A stretch of 26,183 nucleotides of DNA, taken from the IMG/VR virus record IMGVR_UViG_3300013102_000067, positions 1-26,183 of that record; one strand, 5' to 3'. Under the pieces are notes generated by a model that ran no database searches, was not told the DNA's origin, and saw nothing but the letters and a program-made list of their open reading frames with translations. Below are positions 1 through 16,350 of the stretch, in pieces. Within the stretch, counting starts at the first letter, position 1, and each line of letters opens with the position of its first letter. The stretch comes from a virus. The translations under genes and the position numbers were made by a program.

Positions 1-2053
1 ACGTGCCGGCTTTCGTCCACTTGAGGATGATCTTGGCGACCGTGGTGCCGGTGGCCAGACCGATCGCGACAAGACCCTGTGGCAGCGTCGGGATCGTCAC
101 ACGTACCTGAAACGACTTGCCGGCGCCGAACTTCGTCACGCTGGTCAGGGGCAGCCAGCCCAGCGCCTTCGAGCTCGGGATAGCGTTAGCCAGGTATTTG
201 TTGCGCAGCGCACGTCCAGCGACTTCCTGGCTGGTGGTGCCCGACGTGTCCGGGTGCTTGATCACGTAGCCGGCGTGGAATTCGAACAACTGGCCCATCG
301 GGCTTGACTCTGCATGCCAGCCCGATGAACCCGCGGCGAAATTGTGGTTCAAGATCGGAATCTCGACCACGCCGCTCGGCAACACGTACCAGGCCCGGGC
401 GCCGTAGAACGTGGCCGTTCCAGCGGTGTGCCCGCTCACCGCGAACTCGGCGACGCCATACACCACGCCGTCAAACGCTGTTCCCTCGGCGGTGTACAGA
501 GCCCTGGCGTTTGTACCCGTCAGCCCTGGACCTTCCGTCAACCCAATCTCATTGCCGTTGATGTCGCGCCACGAAACACGCACGTCGGCGCGGCACGCCA
601 CCATGCCGCCAAAGCTGTCCGTCGCCATGTCGCCTTGCACGCGAATCGTCGCGCTGTTCGCCAGCACCGGAAACGTCAGCACGCCACCCTGCATCACCGG
701 ATGCGTACCGACAAGATCGCCACCCGATGCCGGTAGGCCCGTCGGCGAACTGCCATCAGCACCGGTCAGCGGTGCACCCGCGCCACCGAGAACGTCATCC
801 GCCGGCGCCGGCAACTGCTGCCCGCCCACGCTGGAGGCGTCGATCGTTACCACGCCCAGCGGCGCAGCGTGCTTGACGATACCAAGCTTGCTCGCGGTCA
901 ACACGAAATCCGGCGTCGCGGCACCAGGATCTAGCGGGTAGCCCTGGTCGCGCGCAAAGCCCACGCCCAGCACCGGCGCATCACTCACCGCATACGTGTA
1001 CGTCGTGGCATCGAGCAGGACGGCCGGCACATTGCGGCAGGCGCCCAACAGGATCGGCCGCGGCTGGTTCGCCGCGCTCACATCCGCATCCGGGCGAATC
1101 AGCCAGCGCTGCACCGGCACGCCGAGCAAGCCCAGCGGGTCGCGGCAGGTGAACTTGACGGTGAGGTCATCCGGCGACGACACGTTGTCGATCACCGCGG
1201 AAAAAAGGCTCACGCTGTCGGCATAGGTCTGCCCGGCGGAGATCTGCGAGACGCGGATCGGCAAGTCGCGCGGGTCGCCCACCAGGTAGTCGTCGAACAC
1301 GCCATCGGCGTTGTATGCCGTCAGCACCATCGCGCCGGTCTTCACGCCCAATTGCCACGGCCAGAAATCCAGCGAACGCACAGCGCGCAGTTCGTTGTTG
1401 TCGCCGGCGACCAGACCGTTGTATCGCACATTCGGCACCGCATCGGCCGGGTCGCTGAGCCAGTCTTCGCTAGCCAGGCGTGCGCCGCGCAAGATCTGCG
1501 GCGGCTGGTACCAGCCGGCCAGTCCGGCCGGAACGGTCTCGAAGGCGCGCTGGCCAGCATTGAGGAAACAGCGCAGGCCATAGGCTTCGCTGCCGCCCAG
1601 ACTCACCGCCAGCGCCCACGGGCCGGTGCTGGGCAGCGCCTGCGTGCGCAGCAACGTGCCGTTGCGCCACCAGGTCACCGTCGGCTGCGTCGACGTGAGG
1701 TCGAGCTGCACCCGGATCAGATCGCCGATCGCGCCGGCGGCGACTGCCGCCACGCTCGCGCCGGCGGTGTGGATCTCGCCCAGGTCCATGCGGTAGCCGA
1801 AGCCGTTGGCATCGCCGCCGACGTACGTGGCCAGCGACGCATCGAGCGTGGCGACGCCGATGCTGGCCAGCAACGTGCCGGGGCCGTAGACCAGCAGCTC
1901 CGCGTTCCAGAGGCCGATGGATTCGGGGAACAGCGCCAGCGCGGTGCGGTTGACGGTCGCGATCGCGTTGACGGCCAGCACCGTACCGGACTGTTCCAGC
2001 TCCATTGAGGCGCCGAGGTTGGATGCGTCGAAGATGGCGTAGAGTGGCTTCAT
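1..2053 (-). CDS. Tail-tip/baseplate-type protein with N-terminal SPRY domain (partial, runs off left edge)
   Basis: The minus strand is open from an ATG at 2053 to the left edge (at least 684 codons), with no stop in the window. The start overlaps the previous stop as TGATG, which implies coupled translation. Residues about 45-170 look like a SPRY/B30.2 domain: an SIGVAT strand, YVGGDANGFGYR, then GDLIRVQLDL, TWWRNG and an AVSLGG strand. Known SPRY folds are small beta sandwiches used for protein binding. Residues 190-370 read like a tail-hub segment (VGDPRDLPIRVSQISAG), and the remainder is Thr/Gly-rich. The place after the tape measure is where siphophages keep distal tail, hub and receptor-binding genes, so a tail-tip role is inferred from context. 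The C-terminus, and whether a central fibre domain follows, are outside the window. Confidence 0.8.
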   Translation of the reverse strand, partial: MKPLYAIFDASNLGASMELEQSGTVLAVNAIATVNRTALALFPESIGLWNAELLVYGPGTLLASIGVATLDASLATYVGGDANGFGYRMDLGEIHTAGASVAAVAAGAIGDLIRVQLDLTSTQPTVTWWRNGTLLRTQALPSTGPWALAVSLGGSEAYGLRCFLNAGQRAFETVPAGLAGWYQPPQILRGARLASEDWLSDPADAVPNVRYNGLVAGDNNELRAVRSLDFWPWQLGVKTGAMVLTAYNADGVFDDYLVGDPRDLPIRVSQISAGQTYADSVSLFSAVIDNVSSPDDLTVKFTCRDPLGLLGVPVQRWLIRPDADVSAANQPRPILLGACRNVPAVLLDATTYTYAVSDAPVLGVGFARDQGYPLDPGAATPDFVLTASKLGIVKHAAPLGVVTIDASSVGGQQLPAPADDVLGGAGAPLTGADGSSPTGLPASGGDLVGTHPVMQGGVLTFPVLANSATIRVQGDMATDSFGGMVACRADVRVSWRDINGNEIGLTEGPGLTGTNARALYTAEGTAFDGVVYGVAEFAVSGHTAGTATFYGARAWYVLPSGVVEIPILNHNFAAGSSGWHAESSPMGQLFEFHAGYVIKHPDTSGTTSQEVAGRALRNKYLANAIPSSKALGWLPLTSVTKFGAGKSFQVRVTIPTLPQGLVAIGLATGTTVAKIILKWTKAGT

Positions 2054-3153
2054 CAAGCCGGCCATGTGAATGAGCCGAATGGATTGAGTCCCGTACTTGT
2101 CGAGCCAGAGCGCATTCCGCATTTACCCGCTCCGGCGATCGAAGTATCAGTGACCGTCACGACAGGGGTTCCGTCGAACGAAGCGACAAGCGACGAACCA
2201 TTCGCGGAAAATGCTAAGGAATGCACGGTATTTATCGGGAAATTGATTGCACTCGACCCTAGCTGAGTGAAAGTTCCACCGACCCTTTTGTAAACGATGA
2301 CCACGTTCCCGGGTGTGTGCGAGCCGTCTTTGATGACGGCCAAGTAGTAGTTGTTTTTGTCCAAAAGTCGCAGCGCTAGGCCTGAATCACTAGCTTGGCT
2401 GGTAACCATGCTGACATGCCCATCGGCGAATGAAACGCCGTTGCGGGTCAACACAGATTCGTTTGAATATTGCTGCAACATCGTTCCGCCGTTACTGGTG
2501 TCTACAAACCAGCGAACTGAAACACTGGCGTACTCCGTATAGCTCGCGATGGTGTTGGTCGAAAAATCGTCTGTTACATACCCTGAAATCACCACACTCT
2601 GCGCACTCGTCGCCGTCTGACCGTCGCCACTATCTACTGCCACGGTGAAGTCGACCGTCGCGGCGCTTCCCGTCGGCGTGCCGCTCAACCGCAGCATGTC
2701 GCCAACGATGCTGAGCGCGAGACCGGCGGGTAGCGCGCCCACTGTCACGCGCGGGTTGCTGTACGTGCCGCCGCCATTGGCAATCGTCAGATCACTGCTG
2801 TACGGCGTGCCCACGGTCGCTGCCGCATAGCTTCCGCTAATAGTCAACAGCAACGGCTCGGCGACCACCGACAACACGAAATCCCGTGTCACCGACGTGC
2901 CGGCGAGATCCGTTGCGGTCACCGCGATCACGAACGTGCCGGCCGTGCCCACGTCGCCGGACGAAATAACGCCCGTCGCCGGGTCGAGCTCCACGCCGTC
3001 AGGCAGCACGCTGTCGGTGGCATACGTGTACGGCGCCACGCCGTTGCGCGCCGTCACTCGCGCGCTGTAGCTGTCATGCAGGTGCACGCTGGGTAGCACG
3101 CCCGACAGGTCCAGGCTGTTGCCGATGTCGATCAGCACGATGCGGCGGGTCAT
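2053..3153 (-). CDS. Tail protein with Ig-like (He_PIG-type) repeats and a lectin-like C-terminal domain
   Basis: 366 aa; its start overlaps the tape-measure stop (ATGA). Two Ig-like repeats of the putative-Ig (He_PIG) type are visible. Residues about 20-95 carry APYTYATDS, LPDGVELDPATGVIS and a GTFVIAVTATD strand. Residues about 105-190 carry GTPYSSDL, LPAGLAL and LRLSGTPTG. Residues about 195-366 form a separate segment (FSTNTIASYTEY, LALRLLDKNNYYLAVIKDG, SLVASFDGTPVVTVTD) that resembles LamG/concanavalin-like sugar-binding sandwiches. Such proteins in this position usually decorate the tail or contact the host surface. The C-terminal part is clearly more AT-rich than its neighbours (about 2060-2620), as expected for an exchanged receptor-binding module. 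The exact function is inferred. Confidence 0.75.
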   Translation of the reverse strand: MTRRIVLIDIGNSLDLSGVLPSVHLHDSYSARVTARNGVAPYTYATDSVLPDGVELDPATGVISSGDVGTAGTFVIAVTATDLAGTSVTRDFVLSVVAEPLLLTISGSYAAATVGTPYSSDLTIANGGGTYSNPRVTVGALPAGLALSIVGDMLRLSGTPTGSAATVDFTVAVDSGDGQTATSAQSVVISGYVTDDFSTNTIASYTEYASVSVRWFVDTSNGGTMLQQYSNESVLTRNGVSFADGHVSMVTSQASDSGLALRLLDKNNYYLAVIKDGSHTPGNVVIVYKRVGGTFTQLGSSAINFPINTVHSLAFSANGSSLVASFDGTPVVTVTDTSIAGAGKCGMRSGSTSTGLNPFGSFTWPA

Positions 3154-13462: not shown

Positions 13463-15451
13463 TCAGGCGCCGCGGGCGTTGGTGACGCTGTACGCCAGGA
13501 TCGACGTGAACCGGCTGCGCAGCGGCGGCGGGATGTGCAGCGAGCTGTACTCCTCGCCGTAGGCGCCGCGCTTGCCCAGCGCCTTGCCGTTGCTGTCGAA
13601 CAGCTCGTACGGCACGCCGGTCTGGAACGTCTTGGCGATCGTGTACCAGAAGTTCGCGCGCTGGCCGAGCAGCATCCGCTCGTCGCCCAGGTCGATGCCC
13701 GGGGCGTCGGTGGCCCAGCCCGGGATACCCTTCACCGGCTGCAGGTTGCCCTGGTTGTCGATGTTGGCATCCGCCCGGCTGCTGGCTTCGCTGAACTGCT
13801 CCGCGTCGGTGATCATGTTGGTCAACACGTCGCTGGCCAGGAAGAAGTCCGGCTTCACGAAACGCTGCTGGCTCAACGTGGCCTTGCGCGCACCCACGGC
13901 CTGCAGAATCTTGTTCATCTGCTTTTCGTAGGTGCTGCCCGCGGCGACGTCGGTGTCCACCTTCAGCACGTTGGTGGTGTAGCTGTAACCGATGGTCACC
14001 GCACCGGCCGGGGCGCTGGCCGCACCGGTCTCATCGCAGATCTGGAACAGGCCGAGGTTGTAGCTCAGCACGCGGAAATACTTGCCCGCTGCCTGCGTGC
14101 CGCTGCCGTCGAACTCCACCAGCACGGTGGCGCCATCCTTCACCACCACCGGCTGCTGGGCGGCGCCCACGGCGGTGCCCTGCAGGTCGCGCGCCTGGTA
14201 CGGCCGCACCACCGGGAAGTTGGCGGTCTTGTAGCCGTTGGCCGCGCCGGTATACGCGGTGGTGGCGGTGCCGGCGGCCACGTCGACCACGCTGTACGCA
14301 TCGCTGTCGCGCAGCATGCGGTTGGCGATGGCCGCGGCCACAAGCTCGCGCATCACCTGCGCATTGCTGACGATGTTGCGGGCCCAGGCATCGAAGTTGA
14401 TGACGTTGCTGTTGCGGCTGAAGAACGCCGCCTCGTTGGTCAGCTCCATCGCCAGCTTGCGCGGCTCGATGTAGGCGTAGTCCAGCGCCTGCGCGATGCC
14501 GGCGCGGTGGATCGGCTGGCCCTCGTACACGATGCCGCCGTTCTGCACCGCGCTGGTGTCGCGGGTCTGGTACGGGATGGTGTGCGTGGCGCCGGTGGTC
14601 GGGTCCACGCTGGCGTTCACCAGGTGCAGGATGTCCAGCCGCTGGTACACCTGCTCGATCACCGCGCGCTGCACGGTGGCCGGGATGGTCATGTCGCCGG
14701 TGTTCACCGGGCCGCCGGCCAGCATCTTGGCTTCCTGGTGCAACTGCATGGCGTGTTCGCGGTCGAACTCGGCCAGCATGGTCTTGATGAAGGGGCTCTG
14801 CTTGGCCTCCTCCACGAACACCAGCTTGCCGTTGAACGCTTCCTGCGTCTGCGCCAGGCCCTTGCGCACGTTCTCGCTGAGCGCCTTGATCTTGTTGCTG
14901 TCGTCGACCGTGATGTGGGTGACGCCCGAGCGGATCGGAAAGCCCTGCTCGGCCAGCTTGCGCGAGGACTCGATCTGGTTGCCCAGCGCGATCTGGTTTT
15001 CCGCCAGCGACTTCACCTGGTCATCGGTCATGGCGCCGGTGATCAGGCCGTCGACATTGGCGCTGAGCAGCTTGCGGGTGTCGTCGCTCAGGCCGGTGGC
15101 GGCGGTCAGCGTATCGCTGAACAGCTTGACCCTGGCCGCCTTGTCGGTGGCCAGCTTGGTGGCGGCGTCGACGCGCGCGGTCTCGCGATCGTCCAGCAGC
15201 TTGGTGATGTCGGCTTCGCTCAGCATCTTGCCGGCGGGCGCCTGCACGCTCAGTGTGATCGGGCCGGTATGGCCACCTTCGGCCAGGGTCTTGCCGGTGG
15301 CGGTGAGGCTGTCCACCAGGCCCTTGTGGGCCGTGGCGTCCTCGCCCAGGTTCTTCGCGGCGGCCTCGTAGGCGCTGCAGATGGATTTGATGGTGTCTTC
15401 GCTGAGCTTCAGCGCGCGCAGGTTGGCGCGCAGGGTTTCGAGCCAGTTCAT
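13463..15451 (-). CDS. Candidate nested product: scaffold-capsid from internal start
   Basis: An in-frame ATG at 15451 (residue 210 of the fusion) is preceded by GGAG nine bases upstream and begins MNWLETLRANLRALKLSEDT, which looks like a natural N-terminus. It would give a 662-aa scaffold-capsid protein without the protease. Nested starts of this kind are known for Mu I/Z and lambda C/Nu3. Many copies of capsid but few of protease are needed per head, so internal initiation would explain the fused frame. Unproven. Confidence 0.5.
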   Translation of the reverse strand: MNWLETLRANLRALKLSEDTIKSICSAYEAAAKNLGEDATAHKGLVDSLTATGKTLAEGGHTGPITLSVQAPAGKMLSEADITKLLDDRETARVDAATKLATDKAARVKLFSDTLTAATGLSDDTRKLLSANVDGLITGAMTDDQVKSLAENQIALGNQIESSRKLAEQGFPIRSGVTHITVDDSNKIKALSENVRKGLAQTQEAFNGKLVFVEEAKQSPFIKTMLAEFDREHAMQLHQEAKMLAGGPVNTGDMTIPATVQRAVIEQVYQRLDILHLVNASVDPTTGATHTIPYQTRDTSAVQNGGIVYEGQPIHRAGIAQALDYAYIEPRKLAMELTNEAAFFSRNSNVINFDAWARNIVSNAQVMRELVAAAIANRMLRDSDAYSVVDVAAGTATTAYTGAANGYKTANFPVVRPYQARDLQGTAVGAAQQPVVVKDGATVLVEFDGSGTQAAGKYFRVLSYNLGLFQICDETGAASAPAGAVTIGYSYTTNVLKVDTDVAAGSTYEKQMNKILQAVGARKATLSQQRFVKPDFFLASDVLTNMITDAEQFSEASSRADANIDNQGNLQPVKGIPGWATDAPGIDLGDERMLLGQRANFWYTIAKTFQTGVPYELFDSNGKALGKRGAYGEEYSSLHIPPPLRSRFTSILAYSVTNARGA

Positions 15452-16078
15452 GGTGGTCTGCTCCAGGGATTCGGAAAGTTGACGGATCAGTTCCGGGTGC
15501 AAGAACACCGGGGTGGTGCCGGTTCCCTCGGCGAGGGTGACCGGGTCCATGCGCTTGATGACGGGGCGCGTGGTGAGCCCGGCGCCAAGAAGCGTCGGGC
15601 CGTGAGCGGTGCGGCTTTCGTTGTCGACAAAGTCGTCGACGAACTCGGCGCTGAGGTACACAAAGCCGCGGTCTTTCACCGCGGCCACGCCGTACGGGGT
15701 GAACTCCACATCGGCGCGCAGGCGGTTGCCGTCCACCTTCAGGCTGAGGATCTTCGCGGCGGAGCCGTTGGCCGGCTCGTGCGCCACGTCGATGAAGATG
15801 TCCTGGCCGTAGGTGCGGGCGTCGAAGTTGCGCACCATACTCAGCAGCATGTCGCGGGTGATCTCGAACGTGCCGTAGCGCGGGTCGCTGAACGTGCCGG
15901 TGCGGATGATGGTGACCGTGGCGCGCGGCGAACCCTCCGCCAGTTTCACGCCGTCCAGGCCGCACATGAAGCGCTTGGCGCCCGGTGGCGAGTCGTTGTT
16001 GTCCAGTTGGAATACGCGCGGAGTGGCCGGCGCCGTGGCCACCATCATCAGTGCTACTGCAAGCAACCGTTTGCGCAT
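13463..16078 (-). CDS. Prohead protease - scaffold - major capsid protein fusion
   Basis: 871 aa from ATG 16078 (GGAG, spacer about eight bases). Residues about 50-185 match the Mu gpI-type prohead protease (Mu-like_Pro). They include DIFIDVAHEP with H100, GNRLRADVEFTPYG, FVYLSAEF with S143, and LLGAGLTTRPVIKRM. Residues about 210-380 are Leu/Lys/Asp-rich helices, as in scaffold or delta domains. From about 380-460 to the end is an HK97-fold capsid region (FIKTMLAEFDREHAM, MTIPATVQRAVIEQVYQRLDI, KPDFFLASDVLTNM, ANFWYTIAKTFQTGVPYELF). These parts are usually two or three genes. The N-terminus (MRKRLLAVALMMVATAPA) oddly resembles a signal peptide. An internal start at 15451 could make the capsid part alone. 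Confidence 0.85.
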   Translation of the reverse strand: MRKRLLAVALMMVATAPATPRVFQLDNNDSPPGAKRFMCGLDGVKLAEGSPRATVTIIRTGTFSDPRYGTFEITRDMLLSMVRNFDARTYGQDIFIDVAHEPANGSAAKILSLKVDGNRLRADVEFTPYGVAAVKDRGFVYLSAEFVDDFVDNESRTAHGPTLLGAGLTTRPVIKRMDPVTLAEGTGTTPVFLHPELIRQLSESLEQTTMNWLETLRANLRALKLSEDTIKSICSAYEAAAKNLGEDATAHKGLVDSLTATGKTLAEGGHTGPITLSVQAPAGKMLSEADITKLLDDRETARVDAATKLATDKAARVKLFSDTLTAATGLSDDTRKLLSANVDGLITGAMTDDQVKSLAENQIALGNQIESSRKLAEQGFPIRSGVTHITVDDSNKIKALSENVRKGLAQTQEAFNGKLVFVEEAKQSPFIKTMLAEFDREHAMQLHQEAKMLAGGPVNTGDMTIPATVQRAVIEQVYQRLDILHLVNASVDPTTGATHTIPYQTRDTSAVQNGGIVYEGQPIHRAGIAQALDYAYIEPRKLAMELTNEAAFFSRNSNVINFDAWARNIVSNAQVMRELVAAAIANRMLRDSDAYSVVDVAAGTATTAYTGAANGYKTANFPVVRPYQARDLQGTAVGAAQQPVVVKDGATVLVEFDGSGTQAAGKYFRVLSYNLGLFQICDETGAASAPAGAVTIGYSYTTNVLKVDTDVAAGSTYEKQMNKILQAVGARKATLSQQRFVKPDFFLASDVLTNMITDAEQFSEASSRADANIDNQGNLQPVKGIPGWATDAPGIDLGDERMLLGQRANFWYTIAKTFQTGVPYELFDSNGKALGKRGAYGEEYSSLHIPPPLRSRFTSILAYSVTNARGA

Positions 16079-16095
16079 CGCCGTCTCCGAAAATC

Positions 16096-16147: not shown

Positions 16148-16190
16148 GACCGTGTGCGGCGGGGTTCGCGATGTCAACGGGAAAGCGTGC
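16148..16190 (-). promoter_or_regulatory. Copy 2 of bipartite late-promoter-like element (upstream of protease-capsid)
   Basis: The minus strand reads GCACGCTTTCCCGTTGAC (16190-16173), 15 bases, GCACACGGTC (16157-16148). Here the -35 is a perfect TTGACA, with a 17-base spacer and CACGGT at -10. The upstream block is also the end of the Com-like gene: it encodes its last residues (RTLSR) and its TGA. A start near 16142 would leave a leader of about 64 bases holding the hairpin at 16096-16130. Confidence 0.65.
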
Positions 16191-16350
16191 GCACCGGCAC
16201 TAATACCACCGGCACGGTGATCCAGCGCTTGCAGCGGTTGCATCGGGCGTGGCTTTCCTTGTCGCCCAGGCGCACCACGCGGGCGGTGAGCACGTTGTCC
16301 ACCAGCAGCTTCTTGCCGCAGCCGGGGCAGCACAGTCCATCGGTCTTCAT
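16174..16350 (-). CDS. Com-like zinc-finger protein
   Basis: 58 aa from ATG 16350, overlapping the minor head gene stop (ATGA), with GGGGA eight bases upstream. Cysteines C8-x2-C11 and C37-x2-C40 flank a basic/hydrophobic core (KLLVDNVLTARVVRL), and CNRCKRW follows the pattern of Mu Com. Com in Mu binds mom mRNA and activates its translation; there is no mom-like gene in this window. Com-like genes inside head modules are common in prophages with no tested role. Given the hairpin in the following capsid leader, binding that RNA is a possible but untested role. Confidence 0.75.
   Translation of the reverse strand: MKTDGLCCPGCGKKLLVDNVLTARVVRLGDKESHARCNRCKRWITVPVVLVPVRTLSR

Follow-up and report, generated by a model that had tools for sequence, protein, structure and literature searches.

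How does a virus that encodes its protease, scaffold and major capsid protein (MCP) in one gene escape making one protease for every shell subunit? This question is raised by the window analyzed here, a virus record of IMG/VR that is 26,183 bases long, in which one uninterrupted minus-strand frame of 871 codons runs from 16078 to 13463 without an internal stop. Its ATG occupies 16076-16078, its stop codon ends at 13463, and the full frame (13463..16078, minus strand) encodes a predicted protease-scaffold-MCP of 871 aa (93.8 kDa calculated). The sequence places a Shine-Dalgarno (SD) core GGAG (16085..16088, minus strand) 6 nt 5′ of this first start codon. A preliminary description had read the three parts as continuous over all 871 codons and had offered self-cleavage of a polyprotein or internal initiation at 15451 as the means of balancing them. 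Gene order around the locus is siphophage-like: terminase, portal and a MuF-like head gene are followed by the fused gene and then by tail-tube and tape-measure genes. A 1329-codon plus-strand ORF covering the same DNA was found to be without support and was rejected as a GC-rich shadow ORF.

The continuity of the three parts was confirmed in the window and in 149 single-frame relatives. A single-protein query of IMG/VR recovered 30 relatives, a profile query 79 loci, and GTDB genomes yielded 59; after removal of fragments, the 149 relatives retained an uninterrupted frame of approximately 800-1070 codons from stop to stop, and 92 of them constitute a non-redundant set (<80% identity). This large and essentially unannotated family comprises phages and prophages, mostly of Beta- and Gammaproteobacteria. 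Microcystis phage vB_MaeS-yong1, for example, carries the gene (52% identical) under the label "hypothetical protein," an annotation that would change. In the same phage (L001:7684-10514), an adjoining 77-aa ORF is named "major head protein," probably a misannotation.

The protease domain (residues 50-180; 15539..15931, minus strand) is, according to its structural model, of the assemblin/T4 gp21 type and belongs to the Mu gpI family. Residues 70-402 match the Pfam family PF10123 (Mu-like prophage I protein; E = 1.9e-10, 41.2 bits, cut-off 25.2), as do 19 of 23 relatives tested (E ≤ 0.001). The two Mu-type motif residues picked out in the preliminary description, presumed catalytic His100 (15779..15781, minus strand) and Ser143 (15650..15652, minus strand), are both where it placed them and are invariant in an alignment of 68 sequences, and D97 is likewise invariant. 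AlphaFold2 predicts a beta-rich domain at residues 52-169. When modeled separately (residues 30-209, pLDDT 83), the protease gave its best structural matches to the herpesvirus assemblins, led by the varicella-zoster virus (VZV) protease (Z = 10.1, 2.6 Å over 108 residues), and matched T4 gp21 (5jbl) at Z = 8.8. Foldseek E-values for this model were weak (best 2.8e-3), yet the top 15 matches were all herpesvirus capsid proteases. A PDB sequence search with the capsid and protease profiles returned no useful match.

Beyond the protease, the full-protein AlphaFold2 model (pLDDT 76.8) and structure matches bear out the scaffold-like segment and HK97-fold capsid first proposed from the letters alone. 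The model and conservation place a helical scaffold at residues 195-415 (14834..15496, minus strand), which is among the least conserved parts of the protein and is rich in L-[AS]-E, and the predicted HK97 fold begins after approximately residue 429/465. The shell part aligns with HK97-fold capsids, with a Foldseek E-value of 7.1e-9 and, across 273 residues, a Z score of 16.3. Against Pfam and NCBIfam, including PF05065 (Phage_capsid), the shell domain matched no capsid family; its sole family match was PHROG 22848, labeled as of unknown function.

The best-supported part of the observation, judged from comparative sequence evidence, is the internal start. The in-frame ATG at 15451 with its GGAG, noted initially in the window, is present as Met210 (15449..15451, minus strand), with the SD core (15461..15464, minus strand) 9 nt 5′ of it. 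As in nested protease/scaffold genes, this in-frame start and ribosome site lie between protease and scaffold. An aligned start codon occurs in 92/92 non-redundant relatives (87 ATG, 5 GTG), even though the residues around it vary (MNW, MKW, MWKEL, MNLQ, MTL, MYK). At positions -18 to -5, an SD core is found in 84/92 relatives, compared with 46/1534 for other in-frame ATGs of the same genes. When synonymous codons were shuffled gene by gene, the core remained in 50.6 relatives on average and in 59 at most, and the mean anti-SD energy at the real site is stronger than in such shuffles (z = -8.4). Roughly every second shuffled gene has an SD core at this position, since the Glu-rich residues encoded there favor it; the amino acid sequence therefore carries part of the signal and codon choice the other part. 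In an unbiased scan of the whole gene, the internal site scored in 0.90 of relatives and the next best position in 0.27.

Plain synonymous-site conservation across the gene was only mildly raised at codons 203-211 (1.22), which was not the top window; this measure is therefore uninformative at such divergence, whereas the SD-specific shuffle test is informative. A second internal start for the MCP alone was sought and rejected, as no conserved start lies near residues 405-480 (best 0.27, mostly non-ATG). Initiation at Met210 would give a second predicted product, scaffold-MCP (residues 210-871; 13463..15451, minus strand), of 662 aa (71.0 kDa calculated). In the window, the predicted SD of the first start is at least as strong as the internal one, although SD strength does not yield the ratio of the products. 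By this sequence evidence, the internal start probably lets the gene make many enzyme-free shell precursors beside enzyme-bearing ones.

An independent parallel is provided by Pseudomonas phage PAJU2, whose ORF003, annotated "prohead protease fused capsid protein," is a fusion of Peptidase_S78 and Phage_capsid (PF05065). Among 34 non-redundant fused members of its family (<85% identity; loci L187-L267), the scan recovered one internal start, an ATG with a GGAGG-like SD at the protease/scaffold junction. This ATG is present in 34/34 fused genes, and its SD is stronger than in synonymous shuffles (z = -6.9); the true gene start gave -8.3, and a negative control, the ATG at 625, gave -0.3. Support for such a kept start comes from two lineages whose proteases differ, the PAJU2 lineage also having split members. 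Because the internal start is kept in the fused PAJU2 genes too, the rule may be general: we lean towards the view that protease-capsid fusions generally keep the capsid start in frame and that the ratio of fused to unfused translation sets the number of proteases per head. If so, each protease-capsid fusion gene would amount to two overlapping genes with a shared C-terminus.

The scaffold also carries a candidate processing signal. A count of L[AS]E across residues 181-440 of the 92 proteins gives 544 copies where shuffles predict 52, a tenfold excess, and both LSE and LAE rank with the most enriched tripeptides of this region. The enrichment is limited to the scaffold: the protease core holds 6 versus 6 expected and the shell (residues 460-871) 14 versus 23. 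The commonest positions include 182, 225, 265, 309, 358, and 435, and the window protein has ten copies (46, 182, 201, 225, 265, 286, 358, 375, 400, and 435), with none inside the protease core and none past 437. T4 gp21 cleaves on the C-terminal side of L/I-X-E, making many cuts in its scaffold (PMC9026906). Because gp21 shares the fold of the protease described here, L[AS]E is, by this analogy, probably its cleavage motif. Two copies are candidate boundaries: L-A-E 182-184 (15527..15535, minus strand; L[AS]E in 66/92 relatives) between protease and scaffold, and L-A-E 435-437 (14768..14776, minus strand; 44/92) between scaffold and MCP. The latter is the final L[AS]E ahead of the shell domain, and its Glu is incompletely conserved among relatives. 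A cut at E437/F438, the probable site, would yield a shell protein of 434 residues (46.8 kDa) that begins at F438, the predicted mature MCP with the HK97 fold (residues 438-871; 13466..14767, minus strand).

L[AS]E could alternatively mark helix or oligomer contacts. On that reading the nested two-product start would be right, but the motif would reflect the structure of the helical scaffold, with the protease cutting elsewhere. The motif does lie mostly within predicted helices, its exact positions shift among relatives, and cleavage is only predicted. However, the reversed E[AS]L is not enriched in residues 181-440 (42 versus 50 expected), nor is [VIM][AS]E. The motif also agrees with the specificity that has been published for a protease with this fold, and the PAJU2-family scaffold shows no enrichment (3 versus 9 expected), as anticipated because its protease is of a different type. 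We therefore regard a purely structural role as the strongest competitor, albeit an unlikely one, and favor cleavage.

Taken together, we consider it likely (probability roughly 0.78) that two nested precursors co-assemble and that the protease then cuts the scaffold from the shell at L[AS]E. Under this model, a single gene would give rise to two precursors with a common C-terminus, initiation at 16078 producing the 871-aa protease-scaffold-MCP and initiation at 15451 the 662-aa scaffold-MCP that lacks the protease. Their scaffold and shell parts would let both co-assemble as a procapsid, and the share of the protease-bearing form would set the number of protease molecules enclosed in the head. 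Once enclosed, the enzyme would cleave the scaffold C-terminal to several of its L-[AS]-E motifs, free itself near E184, and release the shell protein, probably near E437/F438 or perhaps at E423; scaffold peptides would then exit and the shell mature. We infer the synthesis of both products; the ratio between them, their co-assembly, the protease specificity, and the exact mature N-terminus are given here as predictions. The model predicts for the family, besides the cleavage motif, products of 93.8, 71.0, and ~47 kDa.

Self-cleavage and internal initiation had at first been posed as alternatives. Each draws support from our analysis, and the evidence favors their joint action. Self-cleavage by itself would mean a plain polyprotein, with the 871-aa protein as the sole product, cut into equal amounts of protease, scaffold, and shell. 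The continuous frame with its strong first ribosome site and the many candidate cleavage motifs are compatible with such a scheme. It would nevertheless place one protease by each shell subunit, and it leaves unexplained both the start codon in 92/92 relatives, with an SD beyond what codon choice predicts, and the same internal start in the unrelated PAJU2 family. We accordingly judge it improbable; nested precursors offer a simple answer to how a fused gene escapes one protease per shell subunit.

Still less probable, in our estimation, is a reading of the internal start as a leftover from once-separate genes that is now unimportant. Its origin may indeed be of this kind. The PAJU2 family mixes fused and split forms (the latter L213, L218, L233, L239, L243, and L254, and also L220 and L242); in split relatives, the protease frame stops shortly before the junction and the capsid gene starts at that junction, using such a start as the real MCP start. 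This coincidence with the fused internal start suggests that the latter is plausibly the former capsid start retained after fusion, and inheritance would thus explain where an internal start came from. In the window family, however, the site has been kept in 92/92 relatives (<80% identity) through ATG/GTG and SD-variant changes, and such persistence argues against a relic because a start and SD no longer in use would be lost by decay.

That a missed stop or frameshift joined separate genes, the outcome that had been named as fatal to the initial reading, can be dismissed despite the tendency of high-GC DNA to favor long spurious frames and single broken frames in two relatives: chance and sequencing error are excluded because 149 relatives, from independent assemblies and with identity down to ~35%, have the whole gene as a single open frame, and a shell-domain bait applied to random genome samples found full-length matches in frames of at least 846 aa in all but one of ~15 genomes. 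The two broken copies contain, respectively, a single in-frame TAG (L022) and a 1-nt indel relative to a 98%-identical sister (L029). Four further copies (L156, L161, L162, and L166) are truncated and appear to be decayed prophages. A shell-domain profile found no split relatives with both parts in ~1,170 genomes. The sole exception to the long frames, L268, is a 534-codon frame encoding a free-standing MCP without protease, which we interpret as either a decayed prophage or a small element retaining the shell alone.

Two further observations concern these exceptional loci. In L161 (L161:5971-8589), a serine recombinase gene lies shortly past the truncation point of the prophage copy. L268 (L268:1-8001, minus strand, match ~1603-3027) comes from a gammaproteobacterial genome; its capsid domain belongs to the window family (31% identical), AGGAGG stands 5 nt ahead of its ATG, and a tyrosine-recombinase-like gene is located several kilobases upstream on the same strand.

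The organization can be set against several known systems. In lambda C/Nu3 and Mu I/Z, a nested in-frame start yields the scaffold without the protease; herpesvirus assemblin is encoded by nested protease/scaffold genes; and in HK97 gp4/gp5 a scaffold (delta) domain on the capsid N-terminus is removed by the phage protease. The window gene shares with lambda C/Nu3 and Mu I/Z an internal start, and Mu I belongs to the Pfam family matched by its protease, but in those phages the capsid protein has a gene of its own, whereas the nested product here runs on through the MCP. With T4 gp21 and assemblin it shares the predicted protease fold and, for gp21, probably also the L/I-X-E specificity and multiple scaffold cuts; in T4, however, scaffold and capsid genes are separate, and assemblin is fused to scaffold only. 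In HK97 the protease is a separate gene, and the delta domain measures ~100 aa compared with ~220 in the window gene. One gene thus unites lambda/Mu-type nested starts, an HK97-type fused scaffold, and a T4/herpes-type protease. Sections of PMC8508860 cover single-gene protease-scaffold arrangements of the lambda and Mu type and summarize the HK97 system. A second start codon is described for T4 gp21 as well (PMC9026906).

The statement that protease, scaffold, and capsid are usually separate genes needs tempering, as protease-capsid fusions in single genes have been published for PAJU2 and Nocturne116 ORF18 (PMC8306868), occur in actinophage annotations such as that of Powelldog (PMC12760985), and, in the form of protease, scaffold, and MCP in one gene, have been proposed for gp5 of Pseudomonas phage MD8 in the sections of PMC8508860 that treat it. 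As in fused genes of the PAJU2/MD8 type, one conserved uninterrupted frame is found here in the 149 intact relatives. MD8 gp5 has the same three parts as the window gene; according to those sections it differs in being 693 aa long and in having a protease that was aligned to lambda C and modeled on ClpP instead of on the assemblin/gp21 fold, and their description of gp5 makes no mention of an internal start (PMC8508860). PAJU2 ORF003 and Nocturne116 ORF18 resemble it as protease-capsid fusions, the PAJU2 family also in its conserved internal start, but the PAJU2 genes differ in combining Peptidase_S78 with PF05065, in lacking L[AS]E enrichment, and in having split relatives. Our literature search, which covered few subscription journals, returned no account of fused protease-capsid genes with an internal start. 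What sets the window family apart from these systems is the combination of an assemblin/gp21-type protease, an unnamed capsid family, a family-wide internal start, and the L[AS]E motif.

Foldseek against BFVD retrieved other protein records, of 493-733 aa, that align over most of the window protein. Lactobacillus phage SA-C12 (L171:24521-26710) encodes a Peptidase_S78-capsid fusion of 729 aa, in which a very strong SD precedes an in-frame TTG at residue 163, a feature shared with two 65-67% identical relatives; in one of these two (L181), the frame is interrupted at ~370 codons.

Two minor features adjoin the 5′ end of the window gene. Residues 1-20 form a signal-peptide-like N-terminus, MRKRLLAVALMMVATAPATP (16019..16078, minus strand), which is confined to the full-length product and to some relatives; by score, up to 19/92 relatives have N-terminal hydrophobicity comparable to that of the window. 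If this signal peptide is real, only the protease-bearing precursors would be targeted to the membrane. Just 5′ of the polyprotein gene, a 58-codon minus-strand frame (16174-16350) encodes a zinc-ribbon-like CxxC...CxxC mini-protein (MKTDGLCCPGCGKKLL...), which matched no family above the cut-off and which we take to resemble Mu Com.
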